This document shows, piece by piece, positions 24,793 through 30,296 of a stretch of 64,000 nt of DNA; within the stretch, counting starts at the first letter, position 1, and the number at the start of each line of letters is the position of its first letter. Both the position numbers and the translations under genes were made by a program. Where the stretch lies: contig NZ_ATXB01000001.1 of NCBI RefSeq assembly GCF_000421465.1, positions 1,302,001 to 1,366,000 on the forward strand, read 5' to 3'. Source of the DNA: Methylohalobius crimeensis 10Ki. Lineage in GTDB: Bacteria; Pseudomonadota; Gammaproteobacteria; Methylococcales; Methylothermaceae. The notes below the pieces were generated by a model. It was given only the letters and a program-made list of their open reading frames with translations. It did not search any database and was not told where the DNA came from.

Positions 24793-25014
24793 ATGAAATT
24801 TAAAATATTTCAAAACATAAATAATATTACCGCCGCCCTGGCGGTAGGTGCCTTCGCCATGGGTATTGCGCCTGCGGCGAATGCCCTCTCCATGTATAAT
24901 GCCGACGCCTCGTTGGAATTCACCTTGAGCGGTGTCACCGATGCCAATGGAGGCAGCGTGGATAGTAGTGGATGGTCGGTGGAGGCTGATGGCTATGTGT
25001 CGTGTCCCGGATGA
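24793..25014 (+). pseudogene. exported protein gene truncated by the IS481-family element
   Basis: The start at 24793 has AGGAGAAG at 24781-24788. The product begins with a signal peptide (FQNINNITAALAVGAFAMG, then PAANALS) followed by MYNADASLEFTLSGV and a Gly/Ser/Asp-rich stretch. This is a common opening for secreted PEP-CTERM or choice-of-anchor proteins. About 68 host residues remain; the frame then enters the IS left end and stops at 25012-25014. The DNA on the far side of the IS is the antisense 3' end of an RND pump gene, so the missing C-terminal part is not in the window. It was probably a partner of the large secreted protein upstream. Confidence 0.7.
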
Positions 25015-25958
25015 TTGACGACACGTTTATGAAACAAGTGTGGGTGTGACCTTTGCCAATTTTTCAGGGCTTGCACTGGATGAATATGCCCCAAGGCTTT
25101 CTGAGGCACTTGATGATTGTACAACCAGACGTATCGTCGAAGGGTGGTTTCCAGTTCCTCTCCGGAGCGGAAATGATACGTACGCAGGATATCGGCAATA
25201 CGCCCGTTGAATCGCTCCACCATGCCGTTGGTTTGAGGCCTTTTGGGGCGGATGAGTCGATGCTCGATGCCCAGTTCCGTGCACAGTTGATCGAAGACGT
25301 GCTGTCCGGTCGGGGTCCGTTCACCCCGGGTGACAAAGCGATCGGTGAATTCTTTTCCGTTATCGGTAAGAATCTTTTCGATCTTAAACGGCGCGGTCTT
25401 GGCCAGCGCCGCCAGAAAATGCCGCGCATGGCGGGCGCTTTTGCTGTGATAGAGACGCACAAAGACCCAACGCGTGGCCCGATCGATGGCCACAAACAGA
25501 TACCGCCGCCGGGTTTCATCGGCCATTTGGGGCAAATATTTGACGTCGATGTGCACAAAGCCGGGGACATAAGCTTTGAAGGCTTTCGCCTTAGGTGGGC
25601 TTTTATCCGCCGGAGGTCTGCGAGACACCCCGTGTCGCTTGAGCATCCGATGCAACGAAGCGCGGGTCAGGGTCGGATGAATGAATTCCCGCACCACCGC
25701 CAGCAAGTCGTCCAGGGACAAGTCCAACTGCTGGCGCAGCACCAACACCACCTGCTCTTGAGCCGGCGTCAGGGTCGTGGGCAGCCGGTGCGGGGTATGC
25801 GGCAAGTCTTCCACCGAATCGCGTCCCTTCCAGCGCGCGATGGTTTCCACCGTGACGCCAAAGCGCTTGGCCAACACCGTATTCGGTTCCGTGCTCGCCT
25901 GGATCAAAGCGCGGATTCGGGGCGTGGTCGTCGCGTTTTTGTGCAGTCTTACTTGCAT
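24993..25958 (-). CDS. IS481-family transposase
   Basis: A 321-residue DDE transposase. The start at 25958 (MQVRLHKNATTTP) has AGAGGTGACAGG upstream, while an extension to 26003 enters the terminal region. The N-terminus has a helix-turn-helix (AKRFGVTVETIARWKGR). The rve-type catalytic core shows the three acidic residues in FVHIDVKYLP, ILTDNGKEFTDRF and GMVERFNGRIADIL. It is complete and probably active. Its TAG stop lies 3 bases outside the inverted repeat, in flanking DNA (24993-24995), so the last codons depend on the insertion site. Confidence 0.9.
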   Translation of the reverse strand: MQVRLHKNATTTPRIRALIQASTEPNTVLAKRFGVTVETIARWKGRDSVEDLPHTPHRLPTTLTPAQEQVVLVLRQQLDLSLDDLLAVVREFIHPTLTRASLHRMLKRHGVSRRPPADKSPPKAKAFKAYVPGFVHIDVKYLPQMADETRRRYLFVAIDRATRWVFVRLYHSKSARHARHFLAALAKTAPFKIEKILTDNGKEFTDRFVTRGERTPTGQHVFDQLCTELGIEHRLIRPKRPQTNGMVERFNGRIADILRTYHFRSGEELETTLRRYVWLYNHQVPQKALGHIHPVQALKNWQRSHPHLFHKRVVNHPGHDT

Positions 25959-26039
25959 CCTGTCACCTCTCGCATGATGTCTCTGGCCATCAGTAAACCA
26001 CACCGACGGCCTATTAGGGAATCATCCGTGACACGACAA
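24997..26039 (-). mobile_element. IS481-family insertion sequence (about 1.04 kb)
   Basis: The element has 19-bp terminal inverted repeats with one mismatch: TGTCGTGTCCCGGATGATT at 24998-25016 and the complement of TGTCGTGTCACGGATGATT at 26020-26038. It carries one intact DDE transposase. CTAT occurs on both sides (24993-24996 and 26040-26043) and could be a 4-bp target duplication. However, the two flanks belong to unrelated genes that are both cut at the junction, which fits a deletion next to the element. Confidence 0.85.
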
Positions 26040-29000
26040 CTATCCCTTGAACCGCCCCCAACGAACCAGCAGCGGCGGCAGGAGCAGCAAGGTCAAGGCG
26101 GTGGACGACACCAGTCCGCCGATGATGATCGCCGCCATGGGGCCCATGATTTCGCGGCCCGGATTGTCGCTGTCCAGGGCGATGGGCAGCATCGCCAGGG
26201 CGGTGACCAGGGCGGTCATCAACACCGCGGGCAGACGTTCCTGAGCGCCGCGGATGGCGGTGGCGGTATTCCAGGAAAGCTTTTCCTTCAGGACCAGATG
26301 GCGGCAATGGGCGATCAGCATGATCGCATTGCGCACGGTGATTCCGAACAAGGTCACGAAACCCACCATCGATCCCACCGAGACGATTCCTCCCTGCAGC
26401 CAGACCGCGGCGACTCCGCCTACTAGAGCGAAGGGGAGATTGATCAGCGTCAGCAGGGTATGCCGCCAGGAGCCCAAGGCGACGTAAATGAGCAGCAGCA
26501 CCCCCGCACCGGCCAGAAAGGCGTGTAAAAGCAGCGTTTGTCTGGCTTGGTTTCCAGCGACGGCGGCGCCGGTGAATTCCGGGTAGAAACCCGGAGGAAA
26601 ATCGATTTCCGTCAGTATCTTTTGCTTAAGGCGGGTCAGGAAGCTATCCAAGTCGCCGTCGACCTTGGCGGTAATCACCTGCACGCGCTGAGCGTTGCGG
26701 TGCAATAAATTGTAACGGGCTTCGGTTTGACGGATTTCGGCCAGATGCCGCAGAGGGATCAGTTTAGGAGTGCATTTGCCCGGTTGGCTTCCCGAGGAAT
26801 GGGCGACGGGTGTTCGGCAGCTTTCTCCTCCCAAGCTTTGCATCGGCAAGGACGCCAGGATGGCCGGGCTGCGCCGCAATGCCGGCGGCAGAATGACGCT
26901 GATGGGAAAACTGCGGTTGCCGCGGTAGACTTCTCCCACGATGCGGCCTTGGTAGGCGCTTTTCAGGACCCGCCCCAGATCGCCGGGGGAAAGGCCCCAA
27001 AGGCTTAGGTCCTGAGGGCGCGGCACGAGACTCAGCTGAGGCAGGGCGGTCCGAGAACGGAGCCGTACTTCGCATGCACCGGGCAGATCGCGGATCAGGT
27101 CGGCGATGCGCCCGGCGAGGCGATCCAGCCGAGTCAGATCCGGTCCGTAGAGATTGATCGCTATCGGCGCGGTATAGCCGGACAGGGTTTCGTCCACCCG
27201 TTCGACGAGAAAGGTGTTGGCCTCGAAGGCGATCCCGGGGAAGCGTTCCAGAGTGTCCCGCAAATCCTCCAAAACGCCTTGCTGGGCTTGACCCGACAAG
27301 GGTTCCAAATGGACTTCGTACTCGCTGTAGTGACTGCCGTAGGTATCGGCGCCCCGTTCGGCGCGGCCGGCCCACTGGGAAACCGACACCACCCCGGGAA
27401 TATTGGAGAACGCTTCAATCAAGCGTTTTCCCAAGTGCAGCGAAGCATCCAGCGAGGTTCCCGGCAGACTGGCGGTGTGGACGATGAAATGGCCTTCGCG
27501 CAAGTCCGGCAGGAAACGCCCGCCCAGCCCCGGCAGGCTGGCCAGGGCCGCCAGGCAAACCAGCACGGTGCCGGCAAAGGTCAGGCGTGGACGGTTCCCG
27601 ATCACGGCCAGGAGCCGGGCGTAACGGTACTGGAGCCAGCGCACCGGAGGCGGGGGGTCGGTATGCCGGACACCGCCCAGAAGCAGATAACCCAGGGCCG
27701 GAGTGACCGTCAGGGCGACGCCCAGGGAAGCCAGAATCGCCAGAATATAGGCTACCCCCAAGGGGGCGAACAGGCGTCCGGCCACCCCGCTCAGGGTAAG
27801 TAGCGGCAGGAAGACAAGCATCACGATGAGGGTGGCGTAGACCACCGAACCGCGCACTTCCAGGGAGGCTTCCAGAACCACCTGGGCGGGGGAGCGCGGT
27901 CGAGCCGCTCGGCGATTTTCCCGAAGCCTTCGGAAAATGTTTTCGGTATCGATGATGGCGTCGTCCACCACTTCCCCCAAAGCGATGGCCAGCCCTCCCA
28001 GCACCATGATGTTCAGGTTGACCCCCGTTTCCAGCAAAATCAACGCCGCGCTCAGAAGGGACAGGGGAATGGCCAGGGCCGAGATCAGGGCGCTGCGCCA
28101 GTCGAACAGGAAGCCGTACAGCACCAGCACCACGAACAACGCCCCGATGAGCAAATGGCCGCCGAGGCTCTTGATCGAACGCTCGATATAATCGGCCGGG
28201 CGGAACAGACGGGGGTAAAGGGTAATCCCCTGTTTTTCCAGCAGCGGTTGGAATTCGGCCAGAACCTCTTCCACCCCGCGCGATACTTCCAGGGTGTTGG
28301 CGTCGTATTGACCGATGACCATCAGCACCAGGCCGCGTTCGCCGCCGATTTGGGCCGCGCTGACGGCGGGAGCCGTTCCCCATTGGATATCGGCGATCCG
28401 CTCCAGGGGCAGGGGAGAACCGTCGGTGCGTCCGAGGGACAGCTGTCGGAGCCCGCCTAGCGGCTCGCGGTCGAGGGCCAGATTCAGATTCAATCGTTGA
28501 TTGGGCGTTTCCACGAAACCCGAGCCGTGGCGTTGCAAACTCCCCCGCAGTCCGTCCAGGAGCGTGTTGAATCCGAGTCCGTAACGGATGAGCCGCTCCG
28601 GATCGATCCGGATCTGCAGTTGCCGCTCGCCGCCGCCGAACACATTGATGTCGGCCACCCCGGGAACGGATCGCAGCCGGGGGGCCAAGGTCCAATCCAC
28701 GAAGTCGCGCAGGACCATCAGATCGTCGCCGGTCAGGCCCAAGGTAAGGATGGTGGCCGACGACGACGACAGGGGAACCGGCAGGGGCGGGCCGGTGCCC
28801 GGCGGCAAGGTCTGGGCGACGGAAGCCAGCCTTTCGGTCACCTGCTGGCGGGCGCGATAGAGATCGGTGGCGTCCTCGAAAACGGCGGTGATCACCGACA
28901 ATCCGGCGATGGATTCGGAACGGAGATCGGTCAGCCCCAATAGCCCGCCGAGCGTGTTTTCGATGCGTTGCGTTACCCGCCGTTCCACCTGCTCGGCGGT

Positions 29001-29195
29001 CAACCCCGGCGCTTCGGTTTGAATCACCACCTGCTTGGGAGCGAACTCGGGGAAAATATCCAGTCCCGCCCGCGACAGCCGCCAGCCGCCGTAAAGGCAC
29101 AGCACCACGCATAGGCCGACCATCGCCCCGCGCAGGCGAATGGCGGTTTCGATCAGCGCGGCCAGCATCGGCTTGCTTGGAATGTTTGGCATCAA
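26040..29195 (-). CDS. efflux RND transporter permease, HME (CusA/CzcA-like) group
   Basis: A 1051-residue inner-membrane proton-driven pump, normal length for the family. An N-terminal helix is followed by the porter domain, with LPPGTGPPLPVPLSSSSATI typical of heavy-metal RND members. The helix-4 region carries ALGEVVDDAIIDTENIFRRLREN, whose acidic residues form the proton relay. The second half repeats the porter and ends with helices and TALTLLLLPPLLVRWGRF. The stop codon (26040-26042) touches the IS481 junction, so the last residues may have changed. The adaptor gene lies upstream on the same strand across a 132-base gap that holds a large palindrome. No outer-membrane TolC-type gene is present. 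Confidence 0.88.
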   Translation of the reverse strand: MMPNIPSKPMLAALIETAIRLRGAMVGLCVVLCLYGGWRLSRAGLDIFPEFAPKQVVIQTEAPGLTAEQVERRVTQRIENTLGGLLGLTDLRSESIAGLSVITAVFEDATDLYRARQQVTERLASVAQTLPPGTGPPLPVPLSSSSATILTLGLTGDDLMVLRDFVDWTLAPRLRSVPGVADINVFGGGERQLQIRIDPERLIRYGLGFNTLLDGLRGSLQRHGSGFVETPNQRLNLNLALDREPLGGLRQLSLGRTDGSPLPLERIADIQWGTAPAVSAAQIGGERGLVLMVIGQYDANTLEVSRGVEEVLAEFQPLLEKQGITLYPRLFRPADYIERSIKSLGGHLLIGALFVVLVLYGFLFDWRSALISALAIPLSLLSAALILLETGVNLNIMVLGGLAIALGEVVDDAIIDTENIFRRLRENRRAARPRSPAQVVLEASLEVRGSVVYATLIVMLVFLPLLTLSGVAGRLFAPLGVAYILAILASLGVALTVTPALGYLLLGGVRHTDPPPPVRWLQYRYARLLAVIGNRPRLTFAGTVLVCLAALASLPGLGGRFLPDLREGHFIVHTASLPGTSLDASLHLGKRLIEAFSNIPGVVSVSQWAGRAERGADTYGSHYSEYEVHLEPLSGQAQQGVLEDLRDTLERFPGIAFEANTFLVERVDETLSGYTAPIAINLYGPDLTRLDRLAGRIADLIRDLPGACEVRLRSRTALPQLSLVPRPQDLSLWGLSPGDLGRVLKSAYQGRIVGEVYRGNRSFPISVILPPALRRSPAILASLPMQSLGGESCRTPVAHSSGSQPGKCTPKLIPLRHLAEIRQTEARYNLLHRNAQRVQVITAKVDGDLDSFLTRLKQKILTEIDFPPGFYPEFTGAAVAGNQARQTLLLHAFLAGAGVLLLIYVALGSWRHTLLTLINLPFALVGGVAAVWLQGGIVSVGSMVGFVTLFGITVRNAIMLIAHCRHLVLKEKLSWNTATAIRGAQERLPAVLMTALVTALAMLPIALDSDNPGREIMGPMAAIIIGGLVSSTALTLLLLPPLLVRWGRFKG

Positions 29196-29212
29196 CTAGG
29201 CATGGCATTGAG

Positions 29213-29319
29213 CAGGAGTCGGCGGTGTCGATGCGCAACACGCTGTGAATACTTCCCTGTACGCTCGGATCGCAGCATCCATGCTGCGAACGGTTCCGCA
29301 TCGACACCGCCGACTCCTG
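29213..29319. repeat. 107-bp palindromic element with 23-bp perfect arms
   Basis: Arm 29213-29235 (CAGGAGTCGGCGGTGTCGAT plus GCG) is perfectly complementary to 29297-29319. The 61-base loop holds a second hairpin, CGCAGCAT/ATGCTGCG (29271-29278 with 29281-29288). It almost fills the gap between the RND adaptor and permease genes and looks like a dispersed REP- or MITE-type repeat. It could also act as a transcriptional or mRNA-stability element between the two genes. Confidence 0.75.
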
Positions 29320-29327
29320 AATTCCTT

Positions 29328-30296
29328 CTAATCATCGTCTTCCTCGGGCACTTGAGATCGAAATTCCTCCGACAGGAGGAGTTGAGCGCCCCGGGTGACG
29401 ACTTGCTCTCCTCCTTCCAACCCGGATTGAATCCACCACCGAGGACCGGCATCGCGCCATTTATTTAAGCGGCGGCGTTCGAACCGGCTGATGTCCTTCC
29501 GCACAAAGACCCAGGGCAATCCGCCGTACCAGACCACCGCTTCGGCGGGAACGGGCACGGCTTCGCCGGTCTCGGTCAGCCAGGCGGTCAGGCGTTGTCC
29601 GACCCGCAGTTCGGCGGGTTCGTCGGCGAGGAAGAAATGGGTGGGACCGGATAAGGTCGAGTCGGTGCGGGGAGCGGGGGAGACGTATTGTAAGGGGCGC
29701 AGGGTGTCCATGTTTTCAAGCACGGCAGTAAGGGAGGCATCCTCGTCGGGCAGGGTGAGCAAAAGCAGATAAACGCGGCGGTGAACGAGGTCCTGCATTG
29801 TATCGTCGCCGGAGGCGATCCAGCCGCTTACAACGGGACCCCATTCGGCCGTCAGCCGGTTTTGCAAGCGGCGAGATTTCAGGCGCAAAGTATCCGCGCG
29901 GGTTCGGGCGGCGAGCCATTCCTGGCGGACCTGCTCCAGTCGCTCTCGACGAATGGCCTGTCCGGCTTTTTCCAGGCGACTAAGGCGCTTCCGGGCAATG
30001 ACGGCGGCAGGTTCGGCGGCGCTCAGTTCTGCGGCCAGTTGCTCGAGACGGTTGGCGATTTCCAGCAGCGGCAGCGGATCGACGACGCGGGCCGGGACGG
30101 GCGTCCGGGGCGTGAACGATCGCCGTTGGACCGTTTGTATGCGGATACCGGCCAGGCGTTGGCGTGTCTGACTGAGTTCGATAAAAGGCGTCGGGTCAGG
30201 TGATTTTTGGATCGCCAGTGCCGAGGAAAAGGGAAACAATGACAGACTGCTCAGAAGGATCAGTCGGAGTCGAAGGTGAAAAGCGGGAATTGACAT
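29328..30296 (-). CDS. RND efflux periplasmic adaptor (membrane fusion protein)
   Basis: A 322-residue exported protein with a signal peptide (LRLILLSSLSLFPFSSALA). The body contains a helical hairpin rich in R, E, L and A (about 80-160, LEQLAAELSAAEPAAVIARKRL), flanked by shortened lipoyl and beta-barrel parts (VPARVVDP; PAELRVGQRLTAWL, GEAVPVPAEAVVWYGGLPWVFVRKD). It ends with GLEGGEQVVTRGAQLLLSEEFRSQ, the usual membrane-proximal end of CusB/CzcB-like adaptors. It is encoded just before the RND permease on the same strand and should link that pump to a TolC-type channel. It is a little shorter than typical CusB and has no extra metal-binding N-terminal domain. Confidence 0.82.
   Translation of the reverse strand: MSIPAFHLRLRLILLSSLSLFPFSSALAIQKSPDPTPFIELSQTRQRLAGIRIQTVQRRSFTPRTPVPARVVDPLPLLEIANRLEQLAAELSAAEPAAVIARKRLSRLEKAGQAIRRERLEQVRQEWLAARTRADTLRLKSRRLQNRLTAEWGPVVSGWIASGDDTMQDLVHRRVYLLLLTLPDEDASLTAVLENMDTLRPLQYVSPAPRTDSTLSGPTHFFLADEPAELRVGQRLTAWLTETGEAVPVPAEAVVWYGGLPWVFVRKDISRFERRRLNKWRDAGPRWWIQSGLEGGEQVVTRGAQLLLSEEFRSQVPEEDDD

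Follow-up and report, generated by a model that had tools for sequence, protein, structure and literature searches.

The window, a stretch of 64,000 nt of the Methylohalobius crimeensis 10Ki genome (G000, 3.5 Mb in 5 contigs; window G000:C1:1302001-1366000), carries on its minus strand two genes of one operon separated by a palindromic element, an arrangement already read in the earlier note and confirmed here. The upstream gene (29328-30296) is RND periplasmic adaptor-like, as judged from a match to RND_mfp (E 3.1e-8, 33 bits, below the cut-off of 94.9) and a weak match to CzcB, with no Pfam match at E 0.001. The downstream gene (26040-29192) encodes a CzcA-like RND permease of the AcrB/AcrD/AcrF family (PF00873) and is directly followed by an IS481-family transposase gene (24993-26003), also on the minus strand. 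The adaptor stop and the permease start lie 135 nt apart, and the element between them (29213-29319), recognised by its inverted repeat, its predicted fold and its genome copies, consists of an outer helix and a core, with its ends 8 nt from the adaptor stop codon and 20 nt from the permease ATG.

The arms of the palindrome (29213-29239 and 29293-29319) are 27 nt each, stand 53 nt apart and are 96% complementary: 23 bp pair perfectly from the outside, followed by one C.C mismatch and three more pairs. They form the sole inverted repeat of at least 12 nt within 29100-29450, and the RNA fold predicted for 29200-29330 reaches -71.3 kcal/mol versus -39.6 (sd 3.5) in 200 shuffles, none of which equalled it (z -9.0). 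The 107-bp palindrome had therefore been correctly placed and described in the earlier note, and the 8-bp inner hairpin that it mentioned is contained in this fold. The perfect part of the outer helix joins a left arm (29213-29235) that varies among copies to a right arm (29297-29319), and the segment ACGCTGTGAATACTTCCCTGTACGCTC (29240-29266) is conserved in the aligned copies. Two hairpins are possible between the arms, TAC-TTCCCT-GTA (29250-29261), which is the weaker and was absent from the earlier note, and TCGCAGC-ATCCAT-GCTGCGA (29270-29289). On the minus strand, they read UAC-AGGGAA-GUA (stem A) and UCGCAGC-AUGGAU-GCUGCGA (stem B), each with a CANGGANG-type motif (29252-29259 and 29276-29283). 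In the window's own predicted fold the loop of stem B is open; stem A does not form there, and most of its GGA is paired. Positions 29196-29212 may be a leftover of an outer miniature-transposon flank, comprising CTAG and a short spacer.

The same junction was compared in relatives, the permease start being found in 28 of 41 genomes (own included). The comparison covers 20 loci, 19 of them outside the own genome; the upstream gene in relatives was taken as the adaptor by its position and similar acidic end rather than by a family search, and the permease match begins 12-24 nt inside the expected gene. In 13 of the 19 junctions, including all eight congeners with the gene, the upstream stop lies at most 45 nt from the start of the match, and in all eight of these congeners it lies within about 15 nt of the expected start of the pump (for tight-junction examples, see GACGACTGAATG and GACTGATG); the other six junctions have no adjacent stop by the rule used. 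Such proximity leaves no room for the element in those relatives, so that the window element is an insertion at that junction. Stop and start lying this close suggest that adaptor and pump are translationally coupled in the relatives. Since the insertion parts a stop and a start that lie together there, the proposal of the earlier note that the element sets the adaptor-to-pump ratio is plausible, as is a predicted effect on the operon as a whole.

Copies, spread and evolution of the arms

The element is not single-copy. A BLAST search (E <= 1.9e-14) finds it at 20 places in the own genome, the window's included, and a covariance model built for the own-genome search (R1) finds it at 30 distinct places (E <= 5.3e-6), the weaker rows including the same elements in the opposite-strand reading. 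These copies, together with the class-wide matches given below, support the view of the earlier note that it is a dispersed repeat. When the 20 copies are aligned, they have in common a core of ~55 nt with a mean pairwise difference of 7.7% (columns 26-80), while their arms differ by 31-39% yet remain complementary, except that one copy (L020) has lost part of the left arm. RNAalifold reads the alignment as a three-way junction. Two-sided changes amount to 63 cells, all in the outer helix, versus 12.9 in shuffles (0 of 500 shuffles reaching this value), and both sides have changed in 17 of the 20 outer pairs.

As to the nature of the repeat, the earlier note had offered REP or MITE. The MITE-like part stands for the sister copies, in which end repeats such as CTCTGTTGACATTT occur and of which one (L009) has CTAG adjoining both ends, and agrees with the related operons, in which the element would not fit; for the window copy the MITE-like reading is a possible one. 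The REP part does not stand: REPs measure 20-40 bp where described, unlike the element, and a REP/RAYT origin was rejected, as the 30 places have no Y1 transposase gene within 3 kb: of seven PF01797 matches in the own genome, the nearest is 3.1 kb away. An autonomous insertion sequence with the same ends was not found either, no inward-facing pair at insertion-sequence distance appearing (by eye) among 24 matches to the end pattern. A plasmid blastn search with the element gave no match. Four sister copies (L004, L008, L009 and L013) have one short (~22 nt) and one long (~38 nt) outer-transposon flank, and by eye the core between them points either way, as if it could flip within an outer transposon. 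A fragment of the element also lies within another long inverted repeat (L024, G000:C1:2647994-2648041).

Among the own genome and 40 relatives, 12 of 41 genomes match, and the core pattern recovers at least 119 stretches in genome contigs. The 80 titles among the matches listed are presumably all gammaproteobacterial, two of them giving no more than 'Proteobacteria bacterium'. A second covariance model, built on 102 matches from 83 loci (16 in relatives and 67 out of the 119 from the pattern, most of the latter clear-armed), matches at least 74 of the 369 genomes sampled in the class, the own one among them, and at least 67 of 272 genera, the class-wide count being a lower bound because scoring was limited to 10 candidates per genome. 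Of 398 genomes sampled from the phylum, an unstated number of them from outside the class, 32 match, and all 32 are labelled as the own or the same class. Copies with a lost arm exist, since at least 15 rows among the matches listed have no well-paired arm (some of these reach a contig end), and the flanks around the same core are lineage-specific when judged by eye. As to arrangement, five elements form a tandem array in one orientation with a spacing of ~227 bp (G581:C1:94418-95440), and thirteen close inverted pairs are arranged in forward then reverse order with gaps of ~41-214 bp (L146, L181, L166, L135, L161, L211, L150, L148 and L189; L282, L248, L259 and L286), with one inverted pair in the opposite order in G009.

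The pairing of the outer helix extends to these wider sets. Over the whole structure, the 102 copies contain 1124 two-sided cells versus 303.5 in shuffles, and all four Watson–Crick types occur at each of 20 outer pairs; in this set, 67 of the 83 loci came from a pattern in which stem A is fixed, and weak-arm loci were mostly left out. In a further set of 98 copies, selected as high-scoring matches of the model built from the first, 1226 two-sided cells are counted versus 351.7 in shuffles. Closely related copies show how the arms change. Six copies in G312 have an identical 52-nt core, and among 16 copy pairs with identical cores (15 among these six and one other) the arms differ per 26 pairs by 4.4 two-sided versus 1.9 one-sided changes. 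An orthologous site in Marinobacter, whose flanks are 82 and 85% identical, shows by eye three two-sided changes and one one-sided change in the arms. At a site common to Stenotrophomonas maltophilia SJTL3 and G312 (L148/L255), the element seems to have been exchanged whole, because flanks that are alike (91 and 94% identity) enclose different arms and a different core; a second element at this site is mostly missing in G312, and no donor with the same arms was found among the G312 copies listed. Two readings of the arms were given up. Captured host terminators were rejected because the own copies have a common arm consensus, and hypermutable arms, a reading prompted by the G312 comparison, were dropped because divergence is apparent in the flanks of these copies too, so that a strongly constrained core suffices as explanation.

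The reverse strand and its two possible GGA loops

The two strands of the element are not equivalent. Non-Watson–Crick cells in the 102 copies comprise 91 A-C, 26 G-T and 51 others, and by element A-C predominates in 43, G-T in 12 and neither in 47 (p 3.3e-5); in the second set (98 rows, 96 kept), the cells number 71, 20 and 35, respectively, and the elements 39 versus 7 with 50 ties (p 1.8e-6). An A-C on one strand corresponds to G-U on its complement, so that these mismatches would still pair on the reverse strand. The asymmetry has the same direction in all four gene contexts (55:20, 28:14, 30:6 and 24:4), and the better predicted fold belongs to the reverse strand in 178 elements and to the forward strand in 36, partly owing to the same asymmetry. 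A reverse-strand single-stranded DNA hairpin used in transposition could give the same strand trace.

In the 96 copies counted (98 rows, two dropped), C-ANGGAN-G is the consensus of both hairpins on this strand. The counts are C94 A96 N G95 G95 A96 N G95 for stem A and C92 A91 N G96 G92 A95 N G96 for stem B, so that the fixed positions are each kept in 91-96 of 96 copies and the two N are the only free positions in both loops. Stem A was fixed by the pattern in loci from L095 onward, and stem B lies outside the pattern. Among 132 copies, TCC is found in stem B of 127 and the complete C.TCC.TG in that of 104; the 10 weaker own copies all have TCC and two have the complete motif, several showing five-nt loops. 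The distance from GGA to GGA is 20 nt in 81 of the 93 copies measured.

These features resemble published binding sites of CsrA and its relatives. A CsrA review gives the SELEX sequence RUACARGGAUGU, with mostly six-nt loops on short stems, and a distance of 10-63 nt for two-site binding, best above 18; the RsmE consensus is given as A/UCANGGANGU/A, and the ANGGAN hexaloop is a printed feature of RsmE/CsrA sites. With loops AUGGAU and AGGGAA in motifs 21 nt apart, the window has a C-ANGGAN-G pair within this spacing, and in its operon the reverse, CsrA-like strand is the mRNA sense strand. A csrA gene is present in the own genome, in 313 of the 369 genomes of the class and, by a by-hand comparison of listings, in 69 of the 74 element genomes; of the five without a csrA match (G048, G109, G140, G235 and G381), only G235 is >90% complete (98%). 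This co-occurrence lends weak support, as relatedness among genomes is uncorrected. No paper joining these repeats to CsrA is among the literature-search matches listed, and the published CsrA-related sRNAs of Alcanivorax are other RNAs than this element.

Two observations count against the idea that the reverse strand generally acts in mRNAs. In minimum-energy folds, an open six-nt loop closed by C-G is found for 58 of 402 reverse-strand motifs versus 79 of 402 forward ones, partly because an inner A-U pair shrinks the stem B loop to four; the predicted folds thus often appear to hide the loops. In addition, gene contexts (called on unannotated DNA by a purpose-made codon-scored ORF caller, three rows being dropped) place 68 of 227 elements between co-directional genes with the forward strand as sense and 45 with the reverse strand, the remainder being convergent (44), divergent (25), overlapping a called ORF (28) or at edges (17), so that the reverse strand is sense at 45 of 113 co-directional sites.

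Competing explanations and the proposed reading

The element could be a miniature transposon and nothing else, its palindrome being a DNA hairpin or cruciform that a transposase recognises, its arms being kept matched by template-switch repair and its effects on genes being accidental. Such repair is a mechanism of quasi-palindromes. In favour of this account are the excess of two-sided over one-sided arm changes, the end repeats and CTAG of the own copies, the lineage-specific flanks around the same core (by eye) and gene orientations that show no preference for the supposed RNA strand. However, it gives no reason to expect that both loops fit an RNA-binding consensus and vary at its two free positions, the 24 end-like matches include no recognisable autonomous partner, and the vicinity of the 30 places within 3 kb contains no Y1 transposase gene; we regard it as a doubtful explanation. 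A function at the RNA level that does without CsrA, in which the hairpin would protect the end of the upstream adaptor mRNA or be cut by RNase III, draws on the position of the elements, which lie nearer to gene 3′ ends than to starts (median 55 versus 114 nt; within 60 nt, 111 of 210 3′ ends versus 52 of 171 starts). It also has parallels: NEMIS RNA is processed by RNase III and an effect of YPAL on mRNA stability is possible (PMC2229807), and stability roles are described for palindromes of Neisseria and Yersinia. For such a role the outer helix alone suffices, and the conserved loops and the strand asymmetry are left unexplained; it is judged unlikely.

The earlier note had further suggested that the element caps or stalls transcription inside the operon. 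The hairpin is very stable, as its folding energy indicates, but no T run follows it on either strand, so that nothing points to an intrinsic terminator, and the copies sit between co-directional, convergent and divergent genes alike; a terminator or transcription block is thus highly improbable.

What lies at the adaptor/permease junction is a dispersed element with a conserved core and an outer helix that has stayed paired while its sequence changed, and it is absent from the sister operons. That it is a mobile palindrome related to YPAL is, from its sequence and copies, very probable. Whether its working form is a CsrA-binding RNA is judged an even matter: this form would be the reverse-strand RNA, folded as a three-way junction with two C-ANGGAN-G hairpin loops ~20 nt apart, both of which one CsrA/RsmA dimer could bind. 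The insertion would have taken apart the closely joined adaptor stop and pump start and left, 20 nt ahead of the pump start codon, a stable hairpin that CsrA possibly binds, so that translation or stability of the pump should depend on the structure and on free CsrA. The reading as a whole, namely a class-wide mobile palindrome family whose reverse-strand RNA bears two CsrA-type loops and on which, with CsrA, the pump now depends, is slightly favoured. The element may then be regulatory DNA that jumps, and not an inert repeat. Were CsrA to bind, transposition would amount to a direct rewiring of a global post-transcriptional network, and the number of repeats could alter the pool of free CsrA. 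The window offers a clean comparison pair for this, with one operon that has the insertion and eight congeners without it.

Comparison with known repeats and RNA families

The described member of the class-wide miniature palindrome family would be the YPAL/RU-2 repeat of Yersinia and Erwinia, reportedly the subject of De Gregorio 2006. Like the element, YPAL/RU-2 is miniature and dispersed, has inverted repeats and possesses a core homologous to that of the window; it differs in measuring 168 bp, in having its own termini and in arms and flanks unlike those of the element. The 168-nt sequence of RU-2, which is the same as YPAL, is printed by Delihas 2007 (PMC2759123). Its reverse complement agrees with a Y. 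similis locus in 164 out of 167 positions; its alignment with the core in the window extends over 59 nt, scoring 54 against a maximum of 38 in 300 shuffles. As no more than these 59 nt are covered, the window element is a relative of YPAL and not YPAL itself. YPAL is said to be mobile, its target duplications varying from 3 to 26 bp at dyad targets, and to have possible effects on mRNA (PMC2229807); in the passages of both papers that deal with the repeat, Yersinia and Erwinia carotovora are the only hosts named and no link to CsrA is given (PMC2759123, PMC2229807). YPAL-like copies also occur in 5 of 5426 E. coli genomes (NZ_CP022154, NZ_CP058751, NZ_CP058883, NZ_CP067312 and NZ_CP067266), four of them on plasmids and all from wastewater or treatment-plant samples.

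The Rfam family Ysr224 ('Yersinia sRNA 224', RF02770) coincides with the element at 126.5 bits in Y. similis and 73.3 in Pectobacterium, and is the top Rfam match in the window (30.9 bits, E 3.6e-5), far below its cut-off of 70. Its model spans the left flank, left arm and core of YPAL without the right arm; the family is annotated on the forward, that is, the opposite strand, which counts against the reverse-strand reading. Ysr224 has been listed among the 20 most prevalent bacterial sRNAs, and several expressed copies have been reported in Y. ruckeri; since it appears to be part of a repeat, such prevalence counts may be inflated.

The TwoAYGGAY motif (RF01731), known from the human gut, gammaproteobacteria and Clostridiales (PMC2864571), has already been proposed to bind CsrA (PMC2864571, PMC4333381), and the descriptions of the motif in these two papers contain no mention of a mobile repeat; further papers that refer to it are likewise silent on mobility where they do so. 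It resembles the element in having two GGA hairpins within a poorly conserved outer helix, and aligns to the reverse strand of the element: its model scores 38.4 bits on a Marinobacter copy and 27 in G312, and the sole match listed for the own genome at E <= 10 falls on an element, again in reverse-strand reading (34 bits, E 0.002). In two such alignments (own genome and Marinobacter), both GGA loops align in order, one to one. A difference is that the elements stay below the Rfam cut-off of 43 bits, which none reaches (best 38.4), with no match listed in the window at E <= 10 or in 12 other loci at E <= 1; of the two window loops, AGGGAA is not AYGGAY. The score alone is modest evidence, because unrelated long-hairpin miRNA families score as well in the same small searches.

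With the REP, BIME and REPIN sequences associated with RAYT, the element has in common that it is a dispersed intergenic palindrome, sometimes in inverted pairs, and it differs by its size of ~107 bp and by the lack of a Y1 transposase neighbour in the own genome. CsrA sponges of the CsrB/RsmZ type have ANGGAN hexaloops and paired sites as well, but the element has two sites only, dispersed copies and mobile flanks. Taken more broadly, one mobile family could carry a conserved two-site CsrA/RsmA-binding RNA throughout the class, with YPAL, Ysr224 and at least part of TwoAYGGAY as its pieces, and its jumping would place genes under Csr/Rsm or take CsrA away; judged from the sequences, this wider proposal has a little less than an even chance. 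The results extend the Yersinia repeat to at least 67 of the 272 sampled genera of the class and link things that have been filed separately, namely a mobile repeat of Yersinia, an Rfam 'sRNA' and, more loosely, a motif suspected of CsrA binding.
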